A stretch of 41,972 nucleotides of DNA from Elusimicrobiota bacterium. GTDB lineage: Bacteria > Elusimicrobiota > Elusimicrobia > UBA1565. The notes below the pieces were generated by a model that worked only from the letters and a program-made list of their open reading frames with translations, made no database searches and was not told the origin of the DNA. The DNA is taken from assembly GCA_016218495.1 (NCBI GenBank), contig JACRDU010000099.1, forward strand, positions 1-41,972, in the 5' to 3' direction. This document shows positions 28,194 to 41,972 of this stretch, piece after piece; the stretch's first letter is position 1, and each line of letters opens with the position of its first letter. A program made the translations under genes and the position numbers.

Positions 28194-29096
28194 CTAGTTC
28201 CTAATGACCCGCGAGGTCTCCATCGCCCGGATGAGCTGGCTGACGGCCGAGGGCGTGCGGTTGAAGACGCGCCCGATCTCGGTGACGCCCATGCGCGCTT
28301 CCTTCCACATGCGGTAGATGGCTTCCTTGCGCACCGCGGAGATGTCGCGCCACTGGTTGCGTCCCAGCAGGGTCTCCTGGTCCACGCCGTGCTTGGCGAT
28401 GACCTCGGCCAGGATTTTCTCGGGGGTCATCGGCGCGGGACCGCCGCCGATGTCCTCCAGGCCGGCCAGGCGCTGGGCCTCGACAGCGAATTCGGGGGTG
28501 CCGACGCAGAAGCCCTCGACCAAGGGCAGTTCGGCCGCGGCGTCCTTGGTCCGCTCCTTGATGTACTGCAGGTAGCGCACCGACTGCTTGAGGCGGTTGC
28601 CGCTGATGAGGGCCTTGAGGACGGGCGCCGAATCCACCAACGGCTCCTTGTTCTCGCACTCCACGAAGGCCGGGCAGGAGGACCACTGGTAGCGCCAGGC
28701 CCGCTCCTTGAGCCCTTCGCGGACCGGGGCCAGGTGGATGTAGCGGGTCACCTCGAGCAGGAAGTTCTGCTTGTCGACGACGAGCGCCTTGTAGCGGCCC
28801 TGGAAGACATGCCCGACGGAGCCGTGCTGGGAGTTGAAGTACTTGGTGTAGGCCGTGTTGAACCCCTGCATGACCTTGGACAGGTTGGCTTCGCCGGTCT
28901 CAAGGAGCAAGTGGACGTAGGAGTTCATCAGGCAGTAGGCGTACATCTTCAGGCCGTAGCGGTCCTTGTAGGCCTTCAGGAGGGCCAGGAAGGCGCGGCG
29001 GTCCGCTGTGGTGAGGAAGATGTCGCGGTTGTTGTTCCCGGTCAGCACGACGTGATAGCAAGCGCCGGGGTACTGGATTCGAGTTGGGCGTCCCAT
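28194..29096 (-). CDS. REP-associated tyrosine transposase (Y1/RAYT) with DnaA-type HTH tail
   Basis: A 300-residue protein. The N-terminus MGRPTRIQYPGACYHVVLTG is the usual RAYT opening, which favours the ATG at 29096 over the one at 29108. The HUH region reads MNSYVHLLLET, where the family normally has NHxHLL, so the first metal-binding His is replaced by Tyr. The downstream YTKYFN and GHVFQGRYKAL block contains the candidate catalytic Tyr. The last 75 residues resemble the C-terminal helix-turn-helix of DnaA (MGVTEIGRVFNRTPSAVSQL), a known fusion in this group. These enzymes act on short hairpin (REP) DNA as single strands. Two hairpin repeats flank this region. The changed His may reduce or abolish activity. 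Confidence 0.88.
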   Translation of the reverse strand: MGRPTRIQYPGACYHVVLTGNNNRDIFLTTADRRAFLALLKAYKDRYGLKMYAYCLMNSYVHLLLETGEANLSKVMQGFNTAYTKYFNSQHGSVGHVFQGRYKALVVDKQNFLLEVTRYIHLAPVREGLKERAWRYQWSSCPAFVECENKEPLVDSAPVLKALISGNRLKQSVRYLQYIKERTKDAAAELPLVEGFCVGTPEFAVEAQRLAGLEDIGGGPAPMTPEKILAEVIAKHGVDQETLLGRNQWRDISAVRKEAIYRMWKEARMGVTEIGRVFNRTPSAVSQLIRAMETSRVIRN

Positions 29097-29171
29097 AGGT
29101 GGCCTCATAATAGCATATCCGTGCCAGGCTTAAGAACTTCATGCTCATGATACTCCGGCCCGGCGCGGATG

Positions 29172-29239: not shown

Positions 29240-32200
29240 TTACGGCATGCCCGGGTAGGCCGTTCCCGGGACGACCGGATGCAGGCCGTAGAGGGACGGG
29301 TCGAAGCCGGGAGCGGTCTGGTCGACGCCCGCGGAGCGCAGCTGGTCGAGCTCGACCTGCAGCTGCTTCTCGGCCAGGTACTTGCGCACGGTGTCCTCGT
29401 AGAGGCCCGTGACGAAGCCTTCCTTGCCGTTGCGCTTGGCCTCGAGGACGAAGGTGTTGATGTCGGTCCAGTTCGGCGAATAGCGCCCGTTGGCCGAGGC
29501 GATTTCGTTGACCCGGGCGTTCGTGCGCAGCTGCTGGAAGATGGGCTCCGAGCGCATCATGCGCATGAAGACGGGGTCGCGCTGGGCCGACTCCAGGTCC
29601 ATCACCATGGCGAACTCGCGCGTGGCCGCCTCGGGGTGCCAGAGCCGCTTCGGGTCGACGCTGGAGTGGATGCGGCCGAGGTCGATGCGCCCCTGCGCCT
29701 GCAGGAAGTGCGCCTCGCTGGCCAGCTGCGGGTCGAGCACCAGCATCTTGAACTTGAAGTAGCCGCCGAAGTCCTTCGGCCCCGGGTTGTCCTTCCCTTT
29801 GAAGTTGAGGTCCAAACCGCGGCCGCCGACGCGGGTGTCGAGGATGAGGAGCTTGACCTTGCCGCCCTCCAGACCCTTGAGGTTCATCTGCCGGGACACG
29901 TTGGCCTCAGGGCGGTTCAGGCGCAGCAGCTCCGAGTCCGAGAAGACCATGGCTATCTGGTCGGGCTTGATGGCCCCGGTCTTGAGCAGGTAGTTGCGCA
30001 CCGCTTTCACCGTGCGGGTGTCGGGCAGGCTCAGGACGACCAGCGCGTCGGCCTGCTTGCCGGCGGCCAGCTGGGCCGCGTCGTGGGTCATCGCGTCCCG
30101 CACGGCGTCGCCGATGGCCTTGAACTTGCCCGCCGGCCCCTCGTGCAGCTGCAGCCCGACGTCCTTGGCGCCCTGGGAGCCGACGCCGCCGATGACGGTG
30201 CGGTACTTGGCCAGGTACTCCCGGAACTGCTTGCCGGCCGTCCCGGAGAACCCGACGAAGCGGACGTTGAAGTTGTCCCGGACGAAGTCGTTCATCGTCA
30301 CCTGCGTCTTATGGTCGTAGGGCAGGGTCAGGTCGCTCTTGTACTCGATCTCCCAGAAGCGCCGCGTCGGGGTGTCCATGGAGTCGAACCACTGTCCGTT
30401 GTGGATGACGTTCACGCGGCCGGTGATGTTGTCCATGCGGATGTTGGCCGGGTTGTCGGTGTAGCCCGTGGCCAGGTTCAAGAGCTCCGTCATCACCCAG
30501 CTCGAGCCGCGGCCGGTCACCCCGCGCGGCCACAGCGCGGAGGGCGCGAGGGTCCAGATCATCTTCCAGCGCACCTGCGGGGTCATGAAGGGGTCGGACA
30601 GGAACTGCCGGATGAGCTCCTTGGCGTAGACCCGCGCCAGGCCCACGTCGGACTGGGACATCGGGCGAGCCCACCGGGTCTCCTTGACGCCGGGGAGCTT
30701 CGAGAGCACCCACTGCGTGCCGGTATAGCGCAGCGCGGTGCGCGCCGCGTACTCGGTGGCCGTGACGCCCGAGATGCGGCGCTGCAGCACGTCGACGGCG
30801 CGCTCCGGCGTCCAGTCGAGCCGCTTGCCCTGCGACTGGAACGAGGTCTCCAGCGAGGCCAGGGCGCGGCGCAGGCCGTCGGCCTCGGGCCCCTTGAACG
30901 CGTCGAGGTGGGGGGTCCAGCTCTTGGAGGCGCCGGCCGCCTCCAGCTCGAGCTGGGCCAGCATCTGCTTGGCGGCCTGCACCTGCGTCCCCTCGAACGA
31001 GGTGACCTTGGAGTTCGCCTTCTGGAAGTCGGTGCGCCAGCGCCCGGCCTCGGTCTCGGCCGCCTTCAGCCCTTCGATCAGCTCGGCGGACGGGCTGGGG
31101 CCGGCGGTCTTGAGCTCCGCCCGCGCAGCCTGGAGCCTCCGTTCGGCCTGCATCAGCATGCCCTGGGCCTGGTCGCGCACCTCATAGGCGGCCTTCTGCT
31201 CGGCGTTGAGCGGCTTGCCGAGCTCTGCGCGCACCTTCGCCGCCTGGGCGCGCAGGGCGGACGCCCGGGCGTCGGCCTGGGTGATGATGTCCTGCGCCTT
31301 CTGGGTCAGGATTTGGGCCTCGGCCGCGGGCTTGCCGAGGGCCTGGCGGCGCAGCTGCTTGGCCATCTCGTAGGCGGGAGCCTTGGCGCGAGCCTCGGCG
31401 AGCAGCTTCTCGGCCTGGGCGCGCAGGGAGGCGGCCTGCTCCGGCGGCTTGCCGTGGGCCTGGTTGCGCAGGGCGTTGGCCTCGGCTATGAGCTTCTGGC
31501 TGGGCGGCGAGAACGTCTCGGCCGCCATCTCGAGGGTCTTGGCCGTCTTCCCCGGCGTGTCGGCCAGCAACTCCCAGGTCTGGGTGGTGCGCAGCTTCGA
31601 ATGCACGAGGCTGTACATGTCCTCGCGCATGCGGGCGAAGGTCTCGTAGATCGGGTTGTCCTTGACGACCGTCTTTTCGACCAGCTGGGTGCGTTCCGCG
31701 ATGAGCTTCCGGGCCGACTGCTCCCAGCCGGGTTTGCCCTCCTTCAGGAGCTCCTGGAACTTGACGGCGTTGGCGTCGAGGCCGGCCCGGGCCTGCTTGG
31801 ACTCGGTCAGGATCTTCGTGGCCTGGGCCTCGAGCTTCAAGGCCTCGGAGATGTTGCCTTCCGAGCGCTGAATCTTGGCCAGCCGCTGCAGGGTCTTGGC
31901 CTGCTTGCTGCCCAGCGGGGCCGTCTGGTTGACGATGGCCTCCTGCTCGCGCAGCATGTCCCCGAACAGGGTCTTGGCCAGCTTCCAGTCCGCGCCGCCG
32001 ACCACCGAGCGGTTCTGGACGGTCTGGGCGATGCGCTCGCCCGCCTCCAGGATGGTCTTCGTGGCCGCCCCGTCGGACCCCTTTAGAAGGGTGGTCTGGG
32101 TCTCCAGGACCTTGGTCACGCGCTTGGCCAGTCGCTCCATGCCCGCCATGTCGCCCTTCTTCTGCAGGGCGGCCATCCGGTCGGAGAGGGCGACCAGCTC

Positions 32201-35200
32201 CTCGGTCGTGCCGCGCAGCTCGGTCTGCAGCTTTCCGGGCTCCATCGAGTCGACCATCATCTGCTGGCGGCGCGCGTCGTTCTGCACGGCCTTGCGCACC
32301 TCGGCCGGCCCGCGGTCGAGGACCTCCTTCATCCTGTTCGAGATGTTCTTGAGGAGGCGGTAGCCGGTGTTCTCCCGGCCGATGCCGGCGGTCTGCTCGC
32401 CGATGGTCAGCGCGGGCTGCAGGGCCGCCCCGTCCATCTCGTCGCCCAGGATCCAGTACTCGTCGGCCCCGCCGGAGGCGGAGAGCTTCTTCTCGGCGAT
32501 CTTGGTCTTGAAGCCCTCCCAGGTGTCGATCTGCATGTCGGTCAGCAGCTTCTTCGAGGACCGGAAGTCCACGCGGGCCTGGGACTCCAGGTTCGACTGG
32601 ACGGTGAGGAAGATGGTCTTGAGCTTCTTGGAGCCGTGCATCACCGCGTCGGCCTCGGCGATGGGCAGCCAGCCCTCGAAGGCGAGCAGGGTCTTCCCGC
32701 CGCCCGTCTTCATCAGCATGAACTGGCGCACGACCTCCGAGGTGGCCTGGCCCTCCACCGAGATGTTGCGCAGGAAGTGCATCAGGCCTTCGAACTGCTC
32801 CGGGCGCCAGCCCGGCAGCGGGCGGTTCTGGGCGTTGCGCAGCAGCCACGGCGCGGCCTCCATCTCGTTGACGGCCGACTTGAGCAGGGCCAGGTCCGGA
32901 ATGTCGAGCTTGGAGGTGATGCCGTCGACGGTCTGCTTGATGCCGGTGAGCATCTGCTTGTAGGAATCGCCGACCGCCGCCTCGAGGTTGGGCTGCTTGT
33001 CGCGCCAGGCCCTGAGGTTCCCCAGCATGTCGTCTATGGTCGAGGCGACGATGGGGTTCGCCGCGCCGCCGCTGGAGGCCTCGGTCTTCAGCGCCACCAG
33101 GGCCCGTTCGGCGCGCGTGCTGGCGGTGCCGACGTGGTTGAAGTGGTTGAAGCGCGCGTGGATGGAATCGAGGTAGTCCATCATCTTGGTGATGACGCTG
33201 ACCTCGGCCGGAGCCAGGACGCCGCTCTTGGCCTTGGCCTCGGCCCGGAACTCGGCCACCAGGTCCATGTAGCCGACCTTCTTGACCTGCGCCGGGTCCC
33301 CGCGCCAGGAGCCGGTGCGCTCGATCATGCCGTCGACGAACTTCTGGTAGGCGGGCGAGACGGACTTAGCCTCCTTGAGGCTGACCAGGAGGTCCTTGGC
33401 GGTCACGGCCACGTGCTCCTCGGTCTTGAGGTACGGCGACAGGACCCCCTTGGCGAGCTCGAGCTGGGCCTTGGGCACCGGCTTGCCGGCCCGGTCTCCG
33501 GAGAAGAGGACGCGCGAGACCTCTTCCTGGTGGCCGAGGCGGACCCGGCCGAAGCCCTCGAGGTTCGTGCCCGGCGTGGCCTTCAGGATGCGCTCGGAGA
33601 GCTTGGTGTTCTCGAGGATGGACTTCTCGAAGAGGCCCTGGGCCTGGTCGCGCACCTCGTCGGTCACGTGCAGGCGCCCCGCCATCCCCTCGTCCATCTG
33701 GCTGATGCGGAAGTACTCGAACGGGTTGGCCTGGACGCCCTTCCCGCCGCCGGTCACCGACTGCTCGAGCTCGAGGCGGATGGCCTCGTACTTCATCTCC
33801 TTGGTGACCTTGAAGCTGCCCTTCTCGCCGGTCGCCTCCATCAGGTTGAACTCGAAGAGGCGGTTGAGCATCGGCCGCTTCGGGGCGTTCTTGAGGGGCA
33901 GGTCGGCGATGTCCGCGGCGGCGTTCGCCACGCGGTCGAGCTCGCCGGCCTTCTTGTACTCCTCGAAGCCCTGGCGGCTGCGCTGCATCTGCTCGACCTG
34001 CATCGCGGTCTTGGCCGAGAAGGTCGGGATCGCCGCCCAGTAGGGCATCTCCATCGCGTGCAGGCCCGCCTGCTGCGCCCGCTTGATGCGCCGCTCGACG
34101 TCGTCCCCGTCGACGGAGTTGAGCCGCCAGGAGAGGCCGCTGGCCGTCCCTTCCACGAGCTTGTTGAACGCGTAGTACTTCGCGAACTGGTCCGCCATCG
34201 AGAGGGTGGTCCCGCCGATGGCCCCGGCCGTGCCTTTGCCCATCATCCAGCCGAGGAAACGGTCGGAGATGTTCGCGCCGGTCGCCTTGCCGAAGCGGGC
34301 CAGCCCCTTGTCTGCCACCCACTGGACGCCGCCGGCGACGTTGCCGGCCAGGCCGCGGTTGGCAAGCGAGTTGGCGGCCCCGGAGAGGGCGGTCTCCTCG
34401 AAGGCGCTCGACGGCAGGCCCGCGTAGAGCACCCAGGCGTTGTTGGCGCCCCACTTGGCGCCGGCCTTGTAGCCCTCGACGAAGGCCTGCCCGCCGCTCT
34501 TGTAGGGCGAATCGGCCTTAATCTCGTGCATCGCCCAGTTGATCCCGCCCGACATGCCGCCGGACATGCCCAGCGCGAACACGGCGTGGCGTACGCCGGC
34601 GTTGACGCCGCGGATGGCCGTGGCCGTCAGGACGCGGCCCATCAGCGTCTTCTGGCGCAGGGTGTTGGCGGCGGGGGAAAGGGACTGGAGGCGGATGGCC
34701 GTGTGCTCGGCGATCCCGCCGACGACCCGGGCCACGGTGGAGATGACCTTGGCCGTCCGGGTGGCGGTCCCGACCGCGTTGGCCACCGAGAAGGCCGTCT
34801 TGGCTATCCCGGTCAGCACCGCGGCGAAGGCCGGGGCGGCGACGGCGAGCACGACGCTCGAGACGACGATGTCGCGGGCGATGTTGAACCACATGTTGTC
34901 CTTCATCGCCTTCGTGACGGCGCCGCTGAGCTTGCGCAGCGACGCTTCGACGCGCTCGCTGACGCCGACGTCGTCGCCCGCCGAACCGGCCTCGGCCTGC
35001 CAGTGCGTACGCAGGGCGCCGGGGTCCATCCCCAGGGCCGTCTGGCGCGCCGCCGCGAAGTCGCCGGCCACGATCGACTTTACGACGCCGTCCAAGTGAG
35101 GCATCGCGTGGTCGATCGTCTTGCGCGCCTCGATGTATTCCCCCTGCCAATCCCCGCCCCAGAGCTTGCTGAACTTGTTGAGGCCCTTCGACCAGATGTT

Positions 35201-36859
35201 CAGGTGCACCCAGTTCGTGGCTCCGGTCCCCTCCTCCTTGGCCATATGCGTGGTGATCGCCCCCACGCTGAAGATCCGGGCGTCCATCCCGGTGTCCCCG
35301 ATGTCCTTCTGAGTGGCGAGCAACGCCCCCTGGAGTATCCCCATCGGGGCGGCGTGGTCAGCCTTCAGCAGCTCTTCCTCGATGCGGTCATAGGCCTGGA
35401 GCAGCTTCTGGATGCGCCGGGCGATGTCGCCCCCGCGCTTCATGTACTTCTCCCGGTCCGCCGCGGAGAGGTCGAGCTTGTCCAAGGCCTCCCGCAGGGC
35501 CTTGGAGTCGGGAGAATTCACGACCTCTTTGGTGATCCACTTGCCGTCCGTGCCCTTATAGACTTCCCAGCTGACGCTCTCGAGCTGGCCGTAGGCCTGC
35601 CCGCGCTGGGCCTCGAGGTAGGCCAAGGTCAGGTATTTCTTGACCAGGGCCTCGTCGGCCTGCAGGCCTTGGATCTCGGACTGCGTGATGACCTCGCGCG
35701 ACTTGAACGCGGCGACGCGCGTCTGATACTCCTTGAGGAACTCCTCGGCCTTGCCCACGTACTCGTCGCGCTTGGCGAGCTTGCAGGTGGCCAGGTCCCA
35801 GACGCTCACGACCTTCTTATTGCATTGGCGGTCGAATACGTTGAGGCTCTCGCCCTGCGCCTTCTTCGTGAGCTTGGCCAGCATGGCGTCCGTGTTCTTG
35901 AGGATCATCTCCTCGGTGACGTTCTCCTGGAGCAAGGTGGCCAGCTTCACCAGGAGGTCGATCTTGTAGCCCAGCCGCGAGCGCTCCGTGTCCTTCACGA
36001 GGAGGCAGGCGCTGTAGTCCAGCATCTCGAAGTTGTAGCGGCCGGTCTCCGGCACGCGCGGCGCGCAGGCGGGCTTGCCCGGGGCCCGGTTCATGGCCTC
36101 CTGGGACTTCTTGATGTCGCGGCTGAAGGTGGTGACGCCGCCCTGCTCTCCGCAGACCCACTCGTCCCAGGTCCCGGCCGAGCGGTGCTTGGCCTCGAAG
36201 GCGTCGTACTGGGACTTGTTCATCACCAGAGGCTCGGAGGACGGCGCCCAGTTGCGGCTCCGGCAAGCCCAGTTCTTGGCCATGCGCACGGCCACGCCCT
36301 CGTCGTCCATGAAGACGAAGGAGTCGGCGGTCTGCATCTGCGTGTACTGCGCCTCGGGGCGGGCCCGGGCCGCGCCGTCGAAGCTCACCGAAAGCAGCGC
36401 CGTCTGCTCGAAGGACCTGTCCTTGCCGCCCCCCGGAGCCGGGCCGTCCCCGAAGAGCTTGAACAGGTCGCCGAAGCGCTGCTGGGCCTCCTGCTGCGAC
36501 TGCTCCGCCGCCTTGAGCATCTTCGGGGTGGCGTTGCCGGCCTGGCGCATCTGGTCGAAGGTGGGCGAGAAGTCGCGCACGCGCTCCGGGGTGTCCTTGC
36601 GCAGGTACTGGTAGATGACCTCGCCGATGGCCGTCAGCTTGCCGTCCTGCGCCACATATGTGCGCAGGGGGTCGTCGGGCCCTTTGAAGACCTTGTTCTG
36701 TTCGAGGAAGGCGATGGCCTCCTTCGCGTCAGTGCCGGAGGAAGCGGCCGCCGGGGGCGTCTCGCCGGCGAAAACCCGCCCAGCCGTCGGACCCACCCGA
36801 AGGGCGGGGTCCAGGACGGCCATGACGGCCGCGAGGAAGAGGGCGAGGGGTCGGCGCAT
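29240..36859 (-). CDS. 2539-residue SecA-like ATPase with N-terminal signal sequence
   Basis: Residues 1-31 look like a signal peptide (RRPLALFLAAVMAVLDPALR). All six Cys lie at about 198-359, suggesting an oxidised extracytoplasmic domain. Hydrophobic segments lie at about 660-697 and weakly at about 754-780. From about 1360 the SecA motif order appears: RPEQFEG, Walker A MKTGGGKTLL (about 1382), TVQSNLESQA like SecA motif Ia, Walker B GDEMDG (about 1472), GFSGTAGKQF (about 2202), VVLSLPDTRT, DTRVGGRGLDL (about 2339), and QAQGRIDLGRI (about 2387). About 700 mostly helical residues separate the two ATPase halves, where SecA has its much shorter preprotein-binding domain. It is about three times the length of SecA. 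It may be a membrane-tethered motor with its ATPase returned to the cytoplasm through the central hydrophobic segment. Confidence 0.85.
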   Translation of the reverse strand: MRRPLALFLAAVMAVLDPALRVGPTAGRVFAGETPPAAASSGTDAKEAIAFLEQNKVFKGPDDPLRTYVAQDGKLTAIGEVIYQYLRKDTPERVRDFSPTFDQMRQAGNATPKMLKAAEQSQQEAQQRFGDLFKLFGDGPAPGGGKDRSFEQTALLSVSFDGAARARPEAQYTQMQTADSFVFMDDEGVAVRMAKNWACRSRNWAPSSEPLVMNKSQYDAFEAKHRSAGTWDEWVCGEQGGVTTFSRDIKKSQEAMNRAPGKPACAPRVPETGRYNFEMLDYSACLLVKDTERSRLGYKIDLLVKLATLLQENVTEEMILKNTDAMLAKLTKKAQGESLNVFDRQCNKKVVSVWDLATCKLAKRDEYVGKAEEFLKEYQTRVAAFKSREVITQSEIQGLQADEALVKKYLTLAYLEAQRGQAYGQLESVSWEVYKGTDGKWITKEVVNSPDSKALREALDKLDLSAADREKYMKRGGDIARRIQKLLQAYDRIEEELLKADHAAPMGILQGALLATQKDIGDTGMDARIFSVGAITTHMAKEEGTGATNWVHLNIWSKGLNKFSKLWGGDWQGEYIEARKTIDHAMPHLDGVVKSIVAGDFAAARQTALGMDPGALRTHWQAEAGSAGDDVGVSERVEASLRKLSGAVTKAMKDNMWFNIARDIVVSSVVLAVAAPAFAAVLTGIAKTAFSVANAVGTATRTAKVISTVARVVGGIAEHTAIRLQSLSPAANTLRQKTLMGRVLTATAIRGVNAGVRHAVFALGMSGGMSGGINWAMHEIKADSPYKSGGQAFVEGYKAGAKWGANNAWVLYAGLPSSAFEETALSGAANSLANRGLAGNVAGGVQWVADKGLARFGKATGANISDRFLGWMMGKGTAGAIGGTTLSMADQFAKYYAFNKLVEGTASGLSWRLNSVDGDDVERRIKRAQQAGLHAMEMPYWAAIPTFSAKTAMQVEQMQRSRQGFEEYKKAGELDRVANAAADIADLPLKNAPKRPMLNRLFEFNLMEATGEKGSFKVTKEMKYEAIRLELEQSVTGGGKGVQANPFEYFRISQMDEGMAGRLHVTDEVRDQAQGLFEKSILENTKLSERILKATPGTNLEGFGRVRLGHQEEVSRVLFSGDRAGKPVPKAQLELAKGVLSPYLKTEEHVAVTAKDLLVSLKEAKSVSPAYQKFVDGMIERTGSWRGDPAQVKKVGYMDLVAEFRAEAKAKSGVLAPAEVSVITKMMDYLDSIHARFNHFNHVGTASTRAERALVALKTEASSGGAANPIVASTIDDMLGNLRAWRDKQPNLEAAVGDSYKQMLTGIKQTVDGITSKLDIPDLALLKSAVNEMEAAPWLLRNAQNRPLPGWRPEQFEGLMHFLRNISVEGQATSEVVRQFMLMKTGGGKTLLAFEGWLPIAEADAVMHGSKKLKTIFLTVQSNLESQARVDFRSSKKLLTDMQIDTWEGFKTKIAEKKLSASGGADEYWILGDEMDGAALQPALTIGEQTAGIGRENTGYRLLKNISNRMKEVLDRGPAEVRKAVQNDARRQQMMVDSMEPGKLQTELRGTTEELVALSDRMAALQKKGDMAGMERLAKRVTKVLETQTTLLKGSDGAATKTILEAGERIAQTVQNRSVVGGADWKLAKTLFGDMLREQEAIVNQTAPLGSKQAKTLQRLAKIQRSEGNISEALKLEAQATKILTESKQARAGLDANAVKFQELLKEGKPGWEQSARKLIAERTQLVEKTVVKDNPIYETFARMREDMYSLVHSKLRTTQTWELLADTPGKTAKTLEMAAETFSPPSQKLIAEANALRNQAHGKPPEQAASLRAQAEKLLAEARAKAPAYEMAKQLRRQALGKPAAEAQILTQKAQDIITQADARASALRAQAAKVRAELGKPLNAEQKAAYEVRDQAQGMLMQAERRLQAARAELKTAGPSPSAELIEGLKAAETEAGRWRTDFQKANSKVTSFEGTQVQAAKQMLAQLELEAAGASKSWTPHLDAFKGPEADGLRRALASLETSFQSQGKRLDWTPERAVDVLQRRISGVTATEYAARTALRYTGTQWVLSKLPGVKETRWARPMSQSDVGLARVYAKELIRQFLSDPFMTPQVRWKMIWTLAPSALWPRGVTGRGSSWVMTELLNLATGYTDNPANIRMDNITGRVNVIHNGQWFDSMDTPTRRFWEIEYKSDLTLPYDHKTQVTMNDFVRDNFNVRFVGFSGTAGKQFREYLAKYRTVIGGVGSQGAKDVGLQLHEGPAGKFKAIGDAVRDAMTHDAAQLAAGKQADALVVLSLPDTRTVKAVRNYLLKTGAIKPDQIAMVFSDSELLRLNRPEANVSRQMNLKGLEGGKVKLLILDTRVGGRGLDLNFKGKDNPGPKDFGGYFKFKMLVLDPQLASEAHFLQAQGRIDLGRIHSSVDPKRLWHPEAATREFAMVMDLESAQRDPVFMRMMRSEPIFQQLRTNARVNEIASANGRYSPNWTDINTFVLEAKRNGKEGFVTGLYEDTVRKYLAEKQLQVELDQLRSAGVDQTAPGFDPSLYGLHPVVPGTAYPGMP

Positions 36860-36988: not shown

Positions 36989-39900
36989 CTACTTCTGGAC
37001 GCAGGCGGCGCCGTCCATCTTGGCCCCGCAGCGGTCGCAGGCGGCCTTCTTGTCCATGCCCCACCAGGCCACGACTCCCAGGCAAGCGTCTTTGGACTGC
37101 CCGGTAGCCGCGATGAAGCCGGAGGCCTCGATGGTAGGCTGGTCGCCTTTCGTGACGCTCAGGTTGACCTGGTCGGGGGCCGGCCCCTTGAGGGTCAGGC
37201 CGCCGATCTGGATGTCCTTGGGCAACTTGACCCGGTTATCGGCGGGGTCCCGGAAGGCCAGGGTGGGCTCCTTCGAGCGGCGCGCCCCACCGCCTTGAGA
37301 AGTCATAGCGAAGGCGATGTACCAGGACTTCTTCCCGTCCTCCTCGTTGAAGTAGAGGGCGGCGTCGGCGGGCTTCGGGTCCACGCGGGTCAGCTTCTTC
37401 CCGCTGGCGAGTTCGGTGGCGTCCCGGAACGCCCCGTCGACCTGCGTGGTCGAGGTCGGGTCGAGCGGGAAGCCTTGGCCGACGTTGGGCACCCGGTCGG
37501 GCGCATTCTCGGCGCCCTGGTTGCACACTTTGTATTCGGGATAGAGGCAGTAGAACACATCGCCGTTCTTCCCGTTGACCCCAGCCTTCAGGGCTCCTTT
37601 CCCGAACTCCGGCCCGCTGACGTTCCAGCCCTTCACGGGCGCCTCGGCCGCCAGGGCTTTGCGCAGATTGGCGACGGCCTCATCCGCCTTTGCCCCGAAA
37701 CCCGCGGCCCTCAGGACGGTTCCGAGTACCTGGATGTCCGCGATGTCTTTGATCTCGGCCCCGATCAGGTAATAGCCGAGGTCTCCGGTCTTGTAATCCC
37801 CGCCCTCAGCCGAAACCTTCTCCAGGTCCACGAAGGTGATGCCCCGGTCGGTCTTGCTGGCCAGCACCCGGCCGCTCAAGACGATCTCTTCCTGCTCGGA
37901 GGCGGCGGAAGCGGTGCCGCCCATCCCGGGGGGCCATAGCCCGAGGGTATGGGGGTGGAAGATGTTCTGCTTATCGAAGGGCGTCTTGCTGGTGACGCCC
38001 ATCACACGCTGTCCCGGCCCCTTGGGGAGCGCTTCCTCGGAGATGGCGTAGAAGCGCACGCGCTCTTTGGCGGCGGGAGACAAGGCTTCGTTGAGGCGCG
38101 CCGCGCGGGGGTTGTCCGAGCGGTAGCCCCCCTGTATCTCGCCCGGCCAGCCGTCGGTCTGGGCCGGGTCCGGTCTGGCGCCGCCTTGGCCCGGATTGGC
38201 CGTCGCCGGAGTCGAAGGCTGGGTTCCCGGCCCGGGCTGCGGCCCAGGGATATCCGGCTTGGCCGTCGGCACGGGCTTGAAGTCGTCTCCCTCGGCGGGC
38301 TCCCAGATACCCGCCCCCTCGTTCCATTGCAGCCCCTGCCACTTCCCACCGATATTCCGGCCCAGCGAAACCTTGTTGCTGAGGTTTCGCGGCTGGCCGT
38401 CCTGCAACTTGTTCACCTCCGTCATCATGGCAGGCATCCACCGCCTCGCGGACATCCCTGCGCCCGGAATTTCAATGGCTGCTCGCTGAGCCTCCAAATC
38501 CTGCTCATCCCAAAAGAGAAGGTTGCCGGTATTGGTCGCTTCACCCGTCACGCGATACGCCCGTCCCGCGATCATGACGCGGTTTCCGCTCTCCAGCGCC
38601 TTCTTCGCCCTGTTTTGGAAGAGACTGTTGATGGAGGGCATCTGCCCCGGCGGATTTCCGAAAACCGGCATCGCATCAGCCGGGTCCTTTGTGGACCCCT
38701 CGGGCCGGGCAATCGATATGTTAACGTCGTCTCCCGAGGGGGTCAAATCAATCTTGTACTGCTTTCCCCCACCAATCAGAGCCATCACCTTCGAGCCGTA
38801 TTGGTCGATCGGAATCCGCTTGCCGTAGATGTCAGATGGGTTGGAAATGTCATACAGACCAAGTTCGTGAGTTAGCTCAACGGAAGGAGGATCGCCTGGC
38901 CCTATCGTTCTCTTAGTACGGACGACAAGAGACAACAGGCGGCCGTCCAGAGAGAACACGTTAGGGTCACCCCAGGCACCGAAAAGCTGGCCAACTCCGA
39001 ATTCGGAGGATGGGGCCGCGGGGAGTGCGGGGATTCTGCCTCCCGAGCCACCGGGAACACGCGGGCCTGAATTCGGGGCCGTCCCCACCGACCGCGCAAT
39101 GTCCGTCACGCCGCGCTGAAGCGCCTGGAGGATGTATTGAGACTCGGTGCCGGCGTCAAGGATGAACGCCGCCGCCCACTCCGGCTTGCCTTGGTAAGGA
39201 TTCCGCCTCTGACCTTGGTCAGGCTGCTTGTTGCAGTATTGGACGGGAGCGTCCTTCGCGTCGAATTGCCAGCGTCCGAGGCAATCCACCAGCTTGTTCT
39301 CACCGTCTTTCAGGAGAGCCCGCTCATCTATGAGATACTTCTTCGTGGCCGAACTCTTAGCCACCCAGGACGGCACGGACGAGCCCGCGCCGATTACATA
39401 GTAGATCCAGAGCGCATGCTGCCTGCGCTCGGGCCTTCTCACGACGGTCCTGACAGACTCGAGCACGATCCCCTCCTGAGGGGACTGCGAGCGCGACTCG
39501 GGATGAATGAACGACTTCTCCCCATGGGAATTCCAGGTGAACTCGGCGATTCGCTTGGCGATGTCGTCCATCTGTTCGGCGGTCGTGACCTCTCTGCCGA
39601 TTTCGCCGATGGGGCCGGTCTCAGCGCCCAAGGGCTTTCCGTCGGGCAAATTCGGGACCGGTCCTGGGTTCCGGCGCGTGCTTGGAGCCGGGTCGGGCGG
39701 AAGCGTGCCCGGGTTGGGGGTCGGGGCAGGCTCGGCGCGGACCGGAGACGCCGGGGCCGGCCTCGGGGCCGGCGGAACGAATGTCTTTTCGGTCCACGCC
39801 GTCCCGCCCTTGACTATGTCCGAGGCCGCTCCCTGCTCGGTGATGAGGTGAATCTTGAACTTCTCCCCTTTTGCGGGCAGCCGCCAGAGGTGGCTCCGCG

Positions 39901-40174
39901 CCAAATGGGCGTTGTCCAGCACCGGCTCCGTGTAGAAGTTAATGCGCTCGTGTCCGCCATCGTTGGTAAAAGGCGCGTTCTTGGGGTAGTAATAGACATA
40001 GGTCTTGCCATTGTGGACGTAGCGCACCTCGAGCCACTCGACGGCGACCGCGGCATCCCTTGATTTTTGAACGGCCGGTTTGGCCAGGAGGGCCGGAGCT
40101 GAGAGCGGGACGAGGACTGCCGCGAGAACTAGGACGCGCGCCAATGCGCGCACGAGAGGGGTCGGCGTAGTCAT
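36989..40174 (-). CDS. Large secreted protein of unknown function with Cys-rich C-terminus
   Basis: A 1061-residue protein from the ATG at 40174, which has GGTGAG three nt upstream and gives a clean signal peptide (about residues 1-31). An in-frame TTG at 40243 is part of the -35 box and is rejected. An N-terminal beta-like domain (VEWLEVRYVHNGKTYVYYYP) is followed by a Pro-rich linker (about 130-175), then mixed globular regions, a second Pro/Gly linker (about 640-680), and a C-terminal domain with two Cys near the middle (VFYCLYPEYKVC). The tail has four clustered Cys (AACDRCGAKMDGAAC), which may bind metal or form disulfides. I recognise no family. Its position directly upstream of the SecA-like gene suggests a shared process in the envelope. 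Confidence 0.75.
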   Translation of the reverse strand: MTTPTPLVRALARVLVLAAVLVPLSAPALLAKPAVQKSRDAAVAVEWLEVRYVHNGKTYVYYYPKNAPFTNDGGHERINFYTEPVLDNAHLARSHLWRLPAKGEKFKIHLITEQGAASDIVKGGTAWTEKTFVPPAPRPAPASPVRAEPAPTPNPGTLPPDPAPSTRRNPGPVPNLPDGKPLGAETGPIGEIGREVTTAEQMDDIAKRIAEFTWNSHGEKSFIHPESRSQSPQEGIVLESVRTVVRRPERRQHALWIYYVIGAGSSVPSWVAKSSATKKYLIDERALLKDGENKLVDCLGRWQFDAKDAPVQYCNKQPDQGQRRNPYQGKPEWAAAFILDAGTESQYILQALQRGVTDIARSVGTAPNSGPRVPGGSGGRIPALPAAPSSEFGVGQLFGAWGDPNVFSLDGRLLSLVVRTKRTIGPGDPPSVELTHELGLYDISNPSDIYGKRIPIDQYGSKVMALIGGGKQYKIDLTPSGDDVNISIARPEGSTKDPADAMPVFGNPPGQMPSINSLFQNRAKKALESGNRVMIAGRAYRVTGEATNTGNLLFWDEQDLEAQRAAIEIPGAGMSARRWMPAMMTEVNKLQDGQPRNLSNKVSLGRNIGGKWQGLQWNEGAGIWEPAEGDDFKPVPTAKPDIPGPQPGPGTQPSTPATANPGQGGARPDPAQTDGWPGEIQGGYRSDNPRAARLNEALSPAAKERVRFYAISEEALPKGPGQRVMGVTSKTPFDKQNIFHPHTLGLWPPGMGGTASAASEQEEIVLSGRVLASKTDRGITFVDLEKVSAEGGDYKTGDLGYYLIGAEIKDIADIQVLGTVLRAAGFGAKADEAVANLRKALAAEAPVKGWNVSGPEFGKGALKAGVNGKNGDVFYCLYPEYKVCNQGAENAPDRVPNVGQGFPLDPTSTTQVDGAFRDATELASGKKLTRVDPKPADAALYFNEEDGKKSWYIAFAMTSQGGGARRSKEPTLAFRDPADNRVKLPKDIQIGGLTLKGPAPDQVNLSVTKGDQPTIEASGFIAATGQSKDACLGVVAWWGMDKKAACDRCGAKMDGAACVQK

Positions 40175-40214
40175 TTTCTCACCCGGGGTCCGGTGTCCGG
40201 TGTCCGTCGTCGGC

Positions 40215-40243
40215 AGTATAGCCTGAGAGCCTACAAACAGCAA
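40215..40243 (-). promoter_or_regulatory. Sigma70-type promoter for the 1061-residue gene
   Basis: Minus strand TTGCTG (40243-40238), 17-nt spacer, TATACT (40220-40215). The predicted start site at about 40208 gives a 34-nt leader. The leader contains a short tandem repeat of CCGGACA-type units and the Shine-Dalgarno GGTGAG just before the ATG at 40174. Confidence 0.65.
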
Positions 40244-40307: not shown

Positions 40308-41972
40308 CTACGGCGCCCGTGCTACCGCCGCATCCCCCGCCGGCAGATTCTTTCCGATGATGAGCGCCAGATTCCTCGCATTCGCCGTAACTCTCACCGA
40401 TTCCGCCGCATTCTCGGAATTGTCCGAGACCATTGTTCCGCGAACACCTTTGATAGCGCCGTCGAAGGACTGCTTGTATATTCCTTTCGCGCAAGCAGCG
40501 TCGCAACCATCTCGGGTTGCCGCCGCCTTATAAGCGTCCCAGGCAGGCTTGTGCGCGCTGATGAGGGGCCCTCCTTCCTTTTCAGTCAGTGGCTGGGTGT
40601 ACTGCAGCATATTGTTGTAGGTTGTCCCCACCGCGCCCATGCCTTCTACGGGAGTGCCTCCCTCGACAGGCTTTAGCTGGTCACTATTCGCTTTCCCATG
40701 AAGAGCATCACGGGCGGCCACGGCTTCCTTGTTCATCGCTACCCAATTCTGATGGCGCACGTCGATGTCCACGCTTGTCTTATTCAGCGCCTCGTCCTTG
40801 TTGTTGATGACGATGGTTCGCCACTCCGGATACTGCGTCGTCGTCCCCTGGGCGTTGTCCCCATCCGCAATCTCGCCGGGGATAATGGTTTTCGTCAAGA
40901 CATCCTGACCCTCCTTCAGCGATGCGGCAGCCGCTTCGGCCGCTTCCTGCGCCTCCTTGAGGGCCTTGTTGACGGTTCCAATGGCCTTTTGCGCCGCTTC
41001 ATGGTTCTTGAGCGCCACCTCGAAAGCCTCAGCAGCCTTCGCGACTGCCTCCTTGGCAGATTCAATATTGGGCTCCTTTTCCTCTGAGAAGTTGAGCGCC
41101 TTGTACGCTTCTTCCAATTTCTCAGCAGCGGTATTCAGTTTTTGACCAGCCCCGAGCAGGAGCTTTCCCTCACCGCTGGTTTCGTTATTCATCGCGTCAG
41201 CAGCAAGTTCAACCTTCTGGAATGCCGTCTGCAGGGAGTCGGATGCGGCTTTGAGATGGCCGTATCCGGTCTCAATGGTCTTTGCGGCCTCCGACAGGTC
41301 GCAAGTCTTCTTCTTCAGGCTCGCAGACATCCCGGGCGAATTGGCGCAGGCCGACTCCATAAGCCTCATCCGAGCGCTCAACTCTTGTCTCCCCCGCTGA
41401 AGGTTTCCGGAGGTTTGTCCAAGATGGGACTGATATTGCCGATTGTTACGGGCTCCCGCCGCAGGAACCTGGCCGGGAGGGTGAATGGTCCCACCCCCCT
41501 CCGCGGGGTCGTCGGGGGCGCTGCCGTTCAGAGTGACATCCTGACACCCCGTGGCCTTAAGCCCGTTCTTGCACGCCACGGTCCCGCTAACATGGCTGCA
41601 TTCGAGCTGGCCGAACTTCGCCATCGATATGAACTTGAAGTCTCCTGCGGCACATTGGAATCCTCGAGTCCCCTTCCCGCCGGCGACGGCGTTGCCTATC
41701 ATGTTGGCGAACGGGTCGAGCACCGCCTTCTCGGCGAACTTGCCGAACATGTCGAAGCCCATCTTGATGGCCGACTCCTCGAGCATCTTCCGGCGGCCGA
41801 ACTCGCTCCATTCCTTCTTCTTCCACTTCAGGTCCATCTGCTTTTCCATCTCCATCTTCTGGCGCAGGAAAGCCAGCGACTCGCCGAGCTGCTTGGCGTC
41901 CTTCGAGTTGCTGCCGCCGGGGTTCTTGGTCTCGTCGCCCTGCCCCGGACGCCCGCCGAAGTTGCCCGCGCC
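40308..41972 (-). CDS. Coiled-coil, Cys-containing protein, 5' end beyond the window
   Basis: The frame is open from the right edge to the TAG at 40310-40308 (554 codons visible). An ATG at 41855 lies in frame, but the coding frame continues above it with sensible Gly-rich sequence (GAGNFGGRPGQGDETKNPGG), so the true start is outside. The visible part has a Lys/Glu-rich helix, then a hydrophobic-to-Gly stretch (AVLDPFANMIGNAVAGGKG), several Cys (FQCAAGD, LECSH, VACKNG, TGCQD), and a long Ala/Glu/Lys coiled coil (about 200-330 of the visible part). A Cys pair DGCDAACAKG lies near the end. It is somewhat less GC-rich than the giant genes. No family recognised. It is 64 nt upstream of the promoter of the 1061-residue gene, on the same strand. 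Confidence 0.75.
   Translation of the reverse strand, partial: GAGNFGGRPGQGDETKNPGGSNSKDAKQLGESLAFLRQKMEMEKQMDLKWKKKEWSEFGRRKMLEESAIKMGFDMFGKFAEKAVLDPFANMIGNAVAGGKGTRGFQCAAGDFKFISMAKFGQLECSHVSGTVACKNGLKATGCQDVTLNGSAPDDPAEGGGTIHPPGQVPAAGARNNRQYQSHLGQTSGNLQRGRQELSARMRLMESACANSPGMSASLKKKTCDLSEAAKTIETGYGHLKAASDSLQTAFQKVELAADAMNNETSGEGKLLLGAGQKLNTAAEKLEEAYKALNFSEEKEPNIESAKEAVAKAAEAFEVALKNHEAAQKAIGTVNKALKEAQEAAEAAAASLKEGQDVLTKTIIPGEIADGDNAQGTTTQYPEWRTIVINNKDEALNKTSVDIDVRHQNWVAMNKEAVAARDALHGKANSDQLKPVEGGTPVEGMGAVGTTYNNMLQYTQPLTEKEGGPLISAHKPAWDAYKAAATRDGCDAACAKGIYKQSFDGAIKGVRGTMVSDNSENAAESVRVTANARNLALIIGKNLPAGDAAVARAP

Follow-up and report, generated by a model that had tools for sequence, protein, structure and literature searches.

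SecA is the textbook example of a cytoplasmic motor that sends other proteins out of the cell. Long secA-domain genes of unknown function, with insect and protist relatives, have been described from Wolbachia wBol1 and from Amoebophilus (PMC3639933). Giant proteins are common in Elusimicrobiota (PMC11573180), and the giant genes of Elusimicrobia, Omnitrophota and related lineages have been interpreted as predation weapons (PMC12057145). Here we consider P0001, a 2539-residue protein encoded on contig JACRDU010000099.1 of an Elusimicrobiota bacterium (assembly GCA_016218495.1; "the window" is the whole stretch of 41,972 nucleotides that was analysed), which combines a predicted secretion signal with what appears to be a SecA-like motor.

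A first-pass annotation of the window had described six SecA-type motifs, in order, in P0001, and this is confirmed by the open reading frame, by the motif positions (MKTGGGKT at about residue 1383, TVQSN at 1419, GDEMDG at 1472, GFSGTA at 2202, DTRVGGRG at 2341 and QAQGR at 2387) and by the invariance of the catalytic residues. The two RecA-like lobes, with their Walker A, DExx, SAT-like, GRG and QxxGR motifs, place the protein in superfamily 2. Identity among the homologues falls to about 26% in the ATPase region, and the Walker A GKT, DExD, RxxGRGxD and QxxGR residues are nevertheless invariant in the alignments of its two blocks (19 members for A1, 24 for A2); a chance occurrence of the six motifs is thus ruled out.

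The same annotation had called the ATPase SecA-like, and this holds for the fold but not for family membership. Neither Pfam nor NCBIfam names a family for P0001. The SecA DEAD-like domain (PF07517) gives no match at E <= 1 in the protein or in 21 homologues, and the two true SecA genes found elsewhere in the same genome match it at E < 1e-115. Nor do the 21 homologues match PF01043 (preprotein cross-linking), whose position is filled by a helical insertion of about 560 residues, or PF07516 (helical scaffold and wing), with about 110 residues following the motif VI region. Tested singly against Pfam, they show weak ResIII similarity in 16 of 21 cases and weak DEAD similarity in four of 21. Plain SecA membership was therefore rejected, for P0001 itself on both databases and for the homologues on Pfam. 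No convincing sequence relative of P0001 was found in the PDB. An AlphaFold model of residues 1326-2525, built from 21 homologues (mean predicted local distance difference test, pLDDT, of 76), has SecA structures as its top three PDB matches in Foldseek (5k9t, E 6.1e-5; 2fsi, 5e-4; 2vda, 9.6e-4), with UvrB (7e-3) and DEAD-box proteins (Mss116, 8e-3) ranking behind them; the template-modelling scores are low because the insertion dominates the model. An exclusive SecA ancestry was also considered and set aside on profile comparison, in which the hhalign scores for SecA (42.7) and DEAD-box proteins (44.9) both exceed the maxima of column-shuffled nulls (28.7 and 24.8) and are not separated from one another. 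As the fold matches SecA first, yet the SecA Pfam domains are absent, the motor of P0001 is, as judged from sequence and model, best described as SecA-like within superfamily 2 and not as a SecA.

A 700-residue insertion between the ATPase halves had been proposed to lie at the site of the SecA substrate-binding domain. The motif II to III interval is indeed about 730 residues, and the insertion proper (about 1506-2065, some 560 residues) is poorly conserved, variable in length and all-helical by prediction. Since no SecA domain is matched, PF01043 included, its likeness to the SecA substrate domain is one of position only.

At the other end of the protein, the N-terminus (MRRPLALFLAAVMAVLDPALRVGPTAGRVFAGE) is a signal-peptide-like sequence. 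The secretion signal noted in the first-pass annotation proves to be conserved: a rule-based call finds a signal peptide in all 19 homologues with a complete N-terminus, where a similar home-made rule flags 115 of the genome's 459 sampled genes. An N-terminal hydrophobic stretch that is not a working export signal would make P0001 a cytoplasmic or membrane-associated superfamily 2 ATPase, as its intact ATPase motifs, the helicase-like core of a giant protein and the weak ResIII/DEAD similarity in Pfam might lead one to expect. We consider this quite improbable: the homologues' signal peptides have a basic n-region, an h-region and AxA-like sites, the gene just upstream also encodes a protein exported by prediction (P0002, below), and the cysteines are both paired and depleted.

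The cysteine pattern is the strongest pointer to topology, and suggests that the motor is exported as well. As had been noticed earlier, cysteines are confined to the first 360 residues of P0001, where there are six (199, 236, 265, 285, 346 and 359). All six are present in P0001 and its three closest homologues; elsewhere only 346/359 occur in family f2 and only 265/285 in genus g3, and family f3 has none of these positions. Being gained and lost in pairs, the three N-domain pairs behave as disulfides would. VKOR, which we considered as the disulfide maker, is absent from this genome and present in three of 12 relatives. The ATPase part of 24 homologues, by contrast, holds six cysteines in 33,578 residues (0.018%), compared with 127 in 24,800 residues (0.51%) in the cores of canonical SecA from the phylum and 69 in 11,000 (0.63%) in DEAD-box proteins of the order, and the aligned blocks A1 and A2 hold none in 12,087 residues (up to 24 homologues). 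In the sampled genome, the median cysteine content is 0.28% for predicted exported soluble proteins and 0.81% for the others. Thus the Cys-free ATPase core, together with an N-domain whose cysteines vary in pairs, suggests that the whole of P0001, motor included, is extracytoplasmic.

This bears directly on the proposal that a hydrophobic segment near residues 660-697 brings the ATPase back inside. Such a membrane-tethered motor, with signal peptide and N-domain outside, a single pass at about 660-697 and the ATPase in the cytoplasm, perhaps moving a substrate through a channel, would be supplied with ATP without new assumptions, and the paired N-domain cysteines would fit a periplasmic N-domain. 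P0001 does have one hydrophobic segment here (664-682; Kyte-Doolittle, KD, hydropathy 2.5), as do its close relatives, and AlphaFold places it within one long helix (633-696). Across the family, however, the segment is marginal (at 664-685, where the mean hydropathy peaks at 1.37), and several homologues have no window above 1.25 at this place or carry charges inside it. A conserved membrane helix returning the chain to the cytoplasm is therefore unsupported, since the segment falls below membrane-helix hydropathy in many homologues, and an ATPase half that is poorer in cysteine than the N-domain, and Cys-free in its core family-wide, is the opposite of what a cytosolic location would lead us to expect. 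We regard the tethered motor as unlikely, although of the alternatives to whole-protein export it is the one we take most seriously.

If the motor does lie outside, its ATP supply must be considered. The first-pass annotation had counted a topology that leaves the ATPase in the periplasm with no ATP source against its own proposal. Our data favour an ATPase outside the cytoplasm, yet the catalytic residues are invariant, and this outcome is for that reason a puzzle and not a dismissal. One answer would be that P0001 is an exported non-enzyme, a nucleotide-free scaffold retaining the superfamily 2 fold, which would account for a motor fold outside the cytoplasm without ATP; DEAD-type folds can lose activity, and we counted this in its favour. 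But a dead enzyme should have lost some catalytic residues, and the Walker A Lys/Thr, the DExD acids and the motif VI Arg are unchanged down to the most divergent homologues, so that we rate the scaffold as very improbable.

The best explanation, to our minds an evenly balanced one, is that P0001 is one of a family of giant SecA-like superfamily 2 ATPases, restricted to one lineage, that leave whole by the Sec route and are active where ATP exists outside the producer's cytoplasm. A cleavable signal peptide would lead the entire polypeptide across the inner membrane; disulfides would hold its N-domain; the two ATPase lobes would hydrolyse ATP and move the long helical insertion; and P0001 would work together with the exported protein P0002. 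To our knowledge ATP is not expected in the periplasm, and with the catalytic residues invariant this makes an ATP-containing site outside the producer's cytoplasm the likeliest place of work. It might be the interior of another cell (prey, host or neighbour), or alternatively an envelope space fed with nucleotides. For the latter, the same genome encodes a homologue of TLC-type ATP/ADP transporters (L266:1192-2496, plus strand; 86 bits in Pfam, E 1.9e-18 to a chloroplast carrier), which is also clear in two other genomes of genus g1; as a universal partner the carrier was rejected, being strong only in this genus and weak elsewhere. Because most other ATPase-bearing genomes show no clear copy of it, we prefer delivery into another cell to nucleotide supply, with modest confidence and as an unproven reading. 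A precedent for delivery exists in the amoeba symbiont Amoebophilus, whose effectors include SecA-like helicase-related domains (PMC3482391).

Several considerations weigh against export of the whole motor. No ATP source outside the cytoplasm has been demonstrated, the TLC carrier being clear only in genus g1, and we identified no pathway that would take the protein over the outer membrane or into another cell. The signal peptides were called by home-made rules, not by SignalP, and the membrane segments by simple rules; in close relatives, moreover, segment 664-682 is hydrophobic enough for a membrane helix. Cysteine depletion is compositional and indirect, the homologues are not independent observations, and of the sampled proteins for which no signal peptide is predicted, about 10% likewise have almost no cysteine. 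Finally, profile comparison places the motor about equally near to SecA and to DEAD-box proteins.

Our reading of P0001 does not stand in isolation, as a signal sequence ahead of a SecA-type motor recurs in Elusimicrobiota. One of the two true SecA genes of this genome (L067, 2735-6064, plus strand) encodes a signal peptide and a Pro/Ala-rich linker followed by all four SecA Pfam domains, and passes an NCBIfam SecA cut-off. Signal-peptide SecA proteins are found in three relatives: L263 is of the L067 kind, and L261 and L262 have an M50-like membrane domain, carrying HExGH, between signal peptide and SecA. The cores of these signal-peptide SecA proteins hold two cysteines in 2940 residues, compared with 26 in 3675 in the housekeeping SecA proteins of that bacterial family (p = 2.6e-5). 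In family f6 of the class, SecA lies inside proteins of 4433 and 5255 residues with signal-like N-termini (L259 and L260), with the motifs KTGEGKS, VDEVDS, NLAGRGTDI and QLRGRAGRQG. The signal-peptide SecA proteins are arguably as striking as the finding on P0001 itself. The genome encodes another putative exported protein with an ATP-using domain, a 1521-residue signal-peptide protein (L101:3470-8080, plus strand) whose C-terminal segment resembles, by eye, aminoglycoside/choline kinases (THGDAHPGNFF); the search for exported proteins that use ATP covered less than 1 Mb of the genome.

The P0001 family is restricted to one lineage, mostly to one order. In a phylum-wide search, homologues were found in 44 of 341 Elusimicrobiota genomes, 41 of them in the same order and three elsewhere in the same class; these are Elusimicrobia/Elusimicrobiota metagenome-assembled genomes, which are incomplete, and many are groundwater-derived. 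Full frames run to about 2450-3430 residues within the order, and the open frames that hold relatives of the ATPase part in the class family f14 are about 4900-6100 residues long. At L060, in the single-contig genome G203, the ATPase gene is split into several frames, through either pseudogene formation or sequencing error. Spread by plasmid or phage was rejected, there being no tblastn match in plasmid sequences, no relative in viral contigs and nothing below 1e-3 in a viral fold comparison; a role in anti-phage defence was likewise rejected, as PADLOC gives no match. The literature searched contains no experiments on any member of the family.

Table 1. Position of P0001, its parts and its neighbours in the window.
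Feature	Position	Strand	Basis
P0001, giant exported SecA-like ATPase (putative), 2539 residues	29240..36859	minus	full open reading frame and homologues
Predicted signal peptide, residues ~1-32 (MRRPLALFLAAVMAVLDPALRVGPTAGRVFAG)	36764..36859	minus	sequence and 19/19 complete homologues
N-terminal helical domain, residues ~40-650, three Cys pairs (199/236, 265/285, 346/359)	34910..36742	minus	paired Cys and model
Gly/Ala-rich, weakly hydrophobic, charge-poor region, residues ~655-910, including 664-682 (34814-34870)	34130..34897	minus	
First ATPase (RecA-like) block, residues ~1340-1505: Walker A, TVQSN, DEMD	32345..32842	minus	A2 alignment, model
Variable helical insertion, residues ~1506-2065, between motifs II and III	30665..32344	minus	
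Rest of first and second ATPase block, residues ~2066-2430: SGTA, RVGGRGLD, QAQGR	29570..30664	minus	A1 alignment, Foldseek
C-terminal tail, residues ~2431-2539	29243..29569	minus	too short for SecA scaffold plus wing; no PF07516
P0002, predicted exported partner, likely start 40174	36989..40243	minus	homologues adjoin P0001 homologues upstream
P0003, 5214 residues, predicted signal peptide and C-terminal hydrophobic segment	10676..26320	minus	conserved neighbour
Next upstream gene, cut by window end	40308..41972	minus	without similarity to P0002 family

The N-terminal 1000 residues of P0001 have no fold match in the PDB. In about 15 loci a member of the P0002 family immediately precedes the P0001 homologue on the same strand, an operon-like arrangement; P0002 is exported by prediction, signal peptides are present in most of the complete partners of its family, and a (G)PxxWWG-type motif stands at the end of the family's sequences. 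The first-pass annotation had also suggested looking for co-occurrence with a giant neighbour, P0003, and the two families do co-occur and are syntenic: the P0003 family is present in 46 of the 56 genomes of the order, comprising 37 of the 41 with the ATPase and nine of the 15 without it, and in at least 12 genomes a P0003 homologue lies within about 25 kb of a P0001 homologue on the same contig. The TolC-like label given to P0003 was not upheld, as Pfam finds no outer-membrane-efflux domain in it, and remains that annotation's alone. P0003 has a Pro/Ala-rich linker after its signal peptide, like signal-peptide SecA, and its C-terminal hydrophobic segment has a basic tail; a second family member is found at G000:C2:29762-35680. 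Two further observations concern the flanks of P0001. Directly downstream (28194-29108, minus strand) is an open reading frame resembling, as a candidate, a REP-associated tyrosine (Y1) transposase. Between the P0002 stop and P0001 (36950-36975, minus strand) is a GC-rich hairpin of eleven base pairs (GGGGCTGGGCC-CTAA-GGCCCAGCCCC), which has no T-run after it and is a possible attenuator.

Taking the giant family and the signal-peptide SecA proteins together, we tentatively suggest, as something rather short of an even prospect, that Elusimicrobiota export whole SecA-class motors which run on ATP outside the producer's cytoplasm, be it inside a target cell or within an envelope compartment supplied with nucleotides. 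If true, exported SecA relatives would mean one of two things: these bacteria have ATP at hand beyond their cytoplasm, or they deliver motors into other cells. Both answers can be tested now, because we define a family, a partner gene and a natural control, namely signal-peptide SecA set against the housekeeping SecA of the same genomes.

Considering how P0001 compares with known systems, DEAD-box and other superfamily 2 helicases share with it two RecA-like lobes, the same classes of motif and a profile score equal to that of SecA, but they have no export signal and an ordinary cysteine content, and we know of none in which an insertion of comparable size (560 residues) separates motif II from motif III. 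SecA itself (PF07517/PF01043/PF21090/PF07516) is like P0001 in the order and spacing of its ATPase motifs, in the large insertion that follows motif II and precedes motif III, at the site of the preprotein cross-linking domain, and in alignable TVNDY/TGTA/AGRGTD-like segments from Walker A on, as well as providing the best PDB folds. P0001 differs in that no SecA Pfam domain is found even at E = 1 in 21 homologues, in lacking the scaffold/wing domain, and in its long helical insertion, its 1300-residue N-terminal half with signal peptide and its Cys-free motor. SecA is moreover a cytoplasmic protein that drives SecYEG, and the signal peptide and cysteine pattern of P0001 speak against a cytoplasmic location. 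The wBol1 and Amoebophilus genes, likened here by description, also encode unusually long SecA-domain-type proteins (4.5-11.8 kb for the wBol1 genes) and come from host-associated bacteria, but no signal peptide is reported there (PMC3639933). The signal-peptide SecA paralogues (L067, L261-L263) share with P0001 both the signal peptide before a SecA-type motor and the depletion of cysteine; those tested, however, have SecA Pfam domains (all four in L067 and L263, which score above an NCBIfam SecA cut-off), and in them a Pro/Ala-rich linker or an M50-like membrane domain replaces the giant N-domain of P0001.
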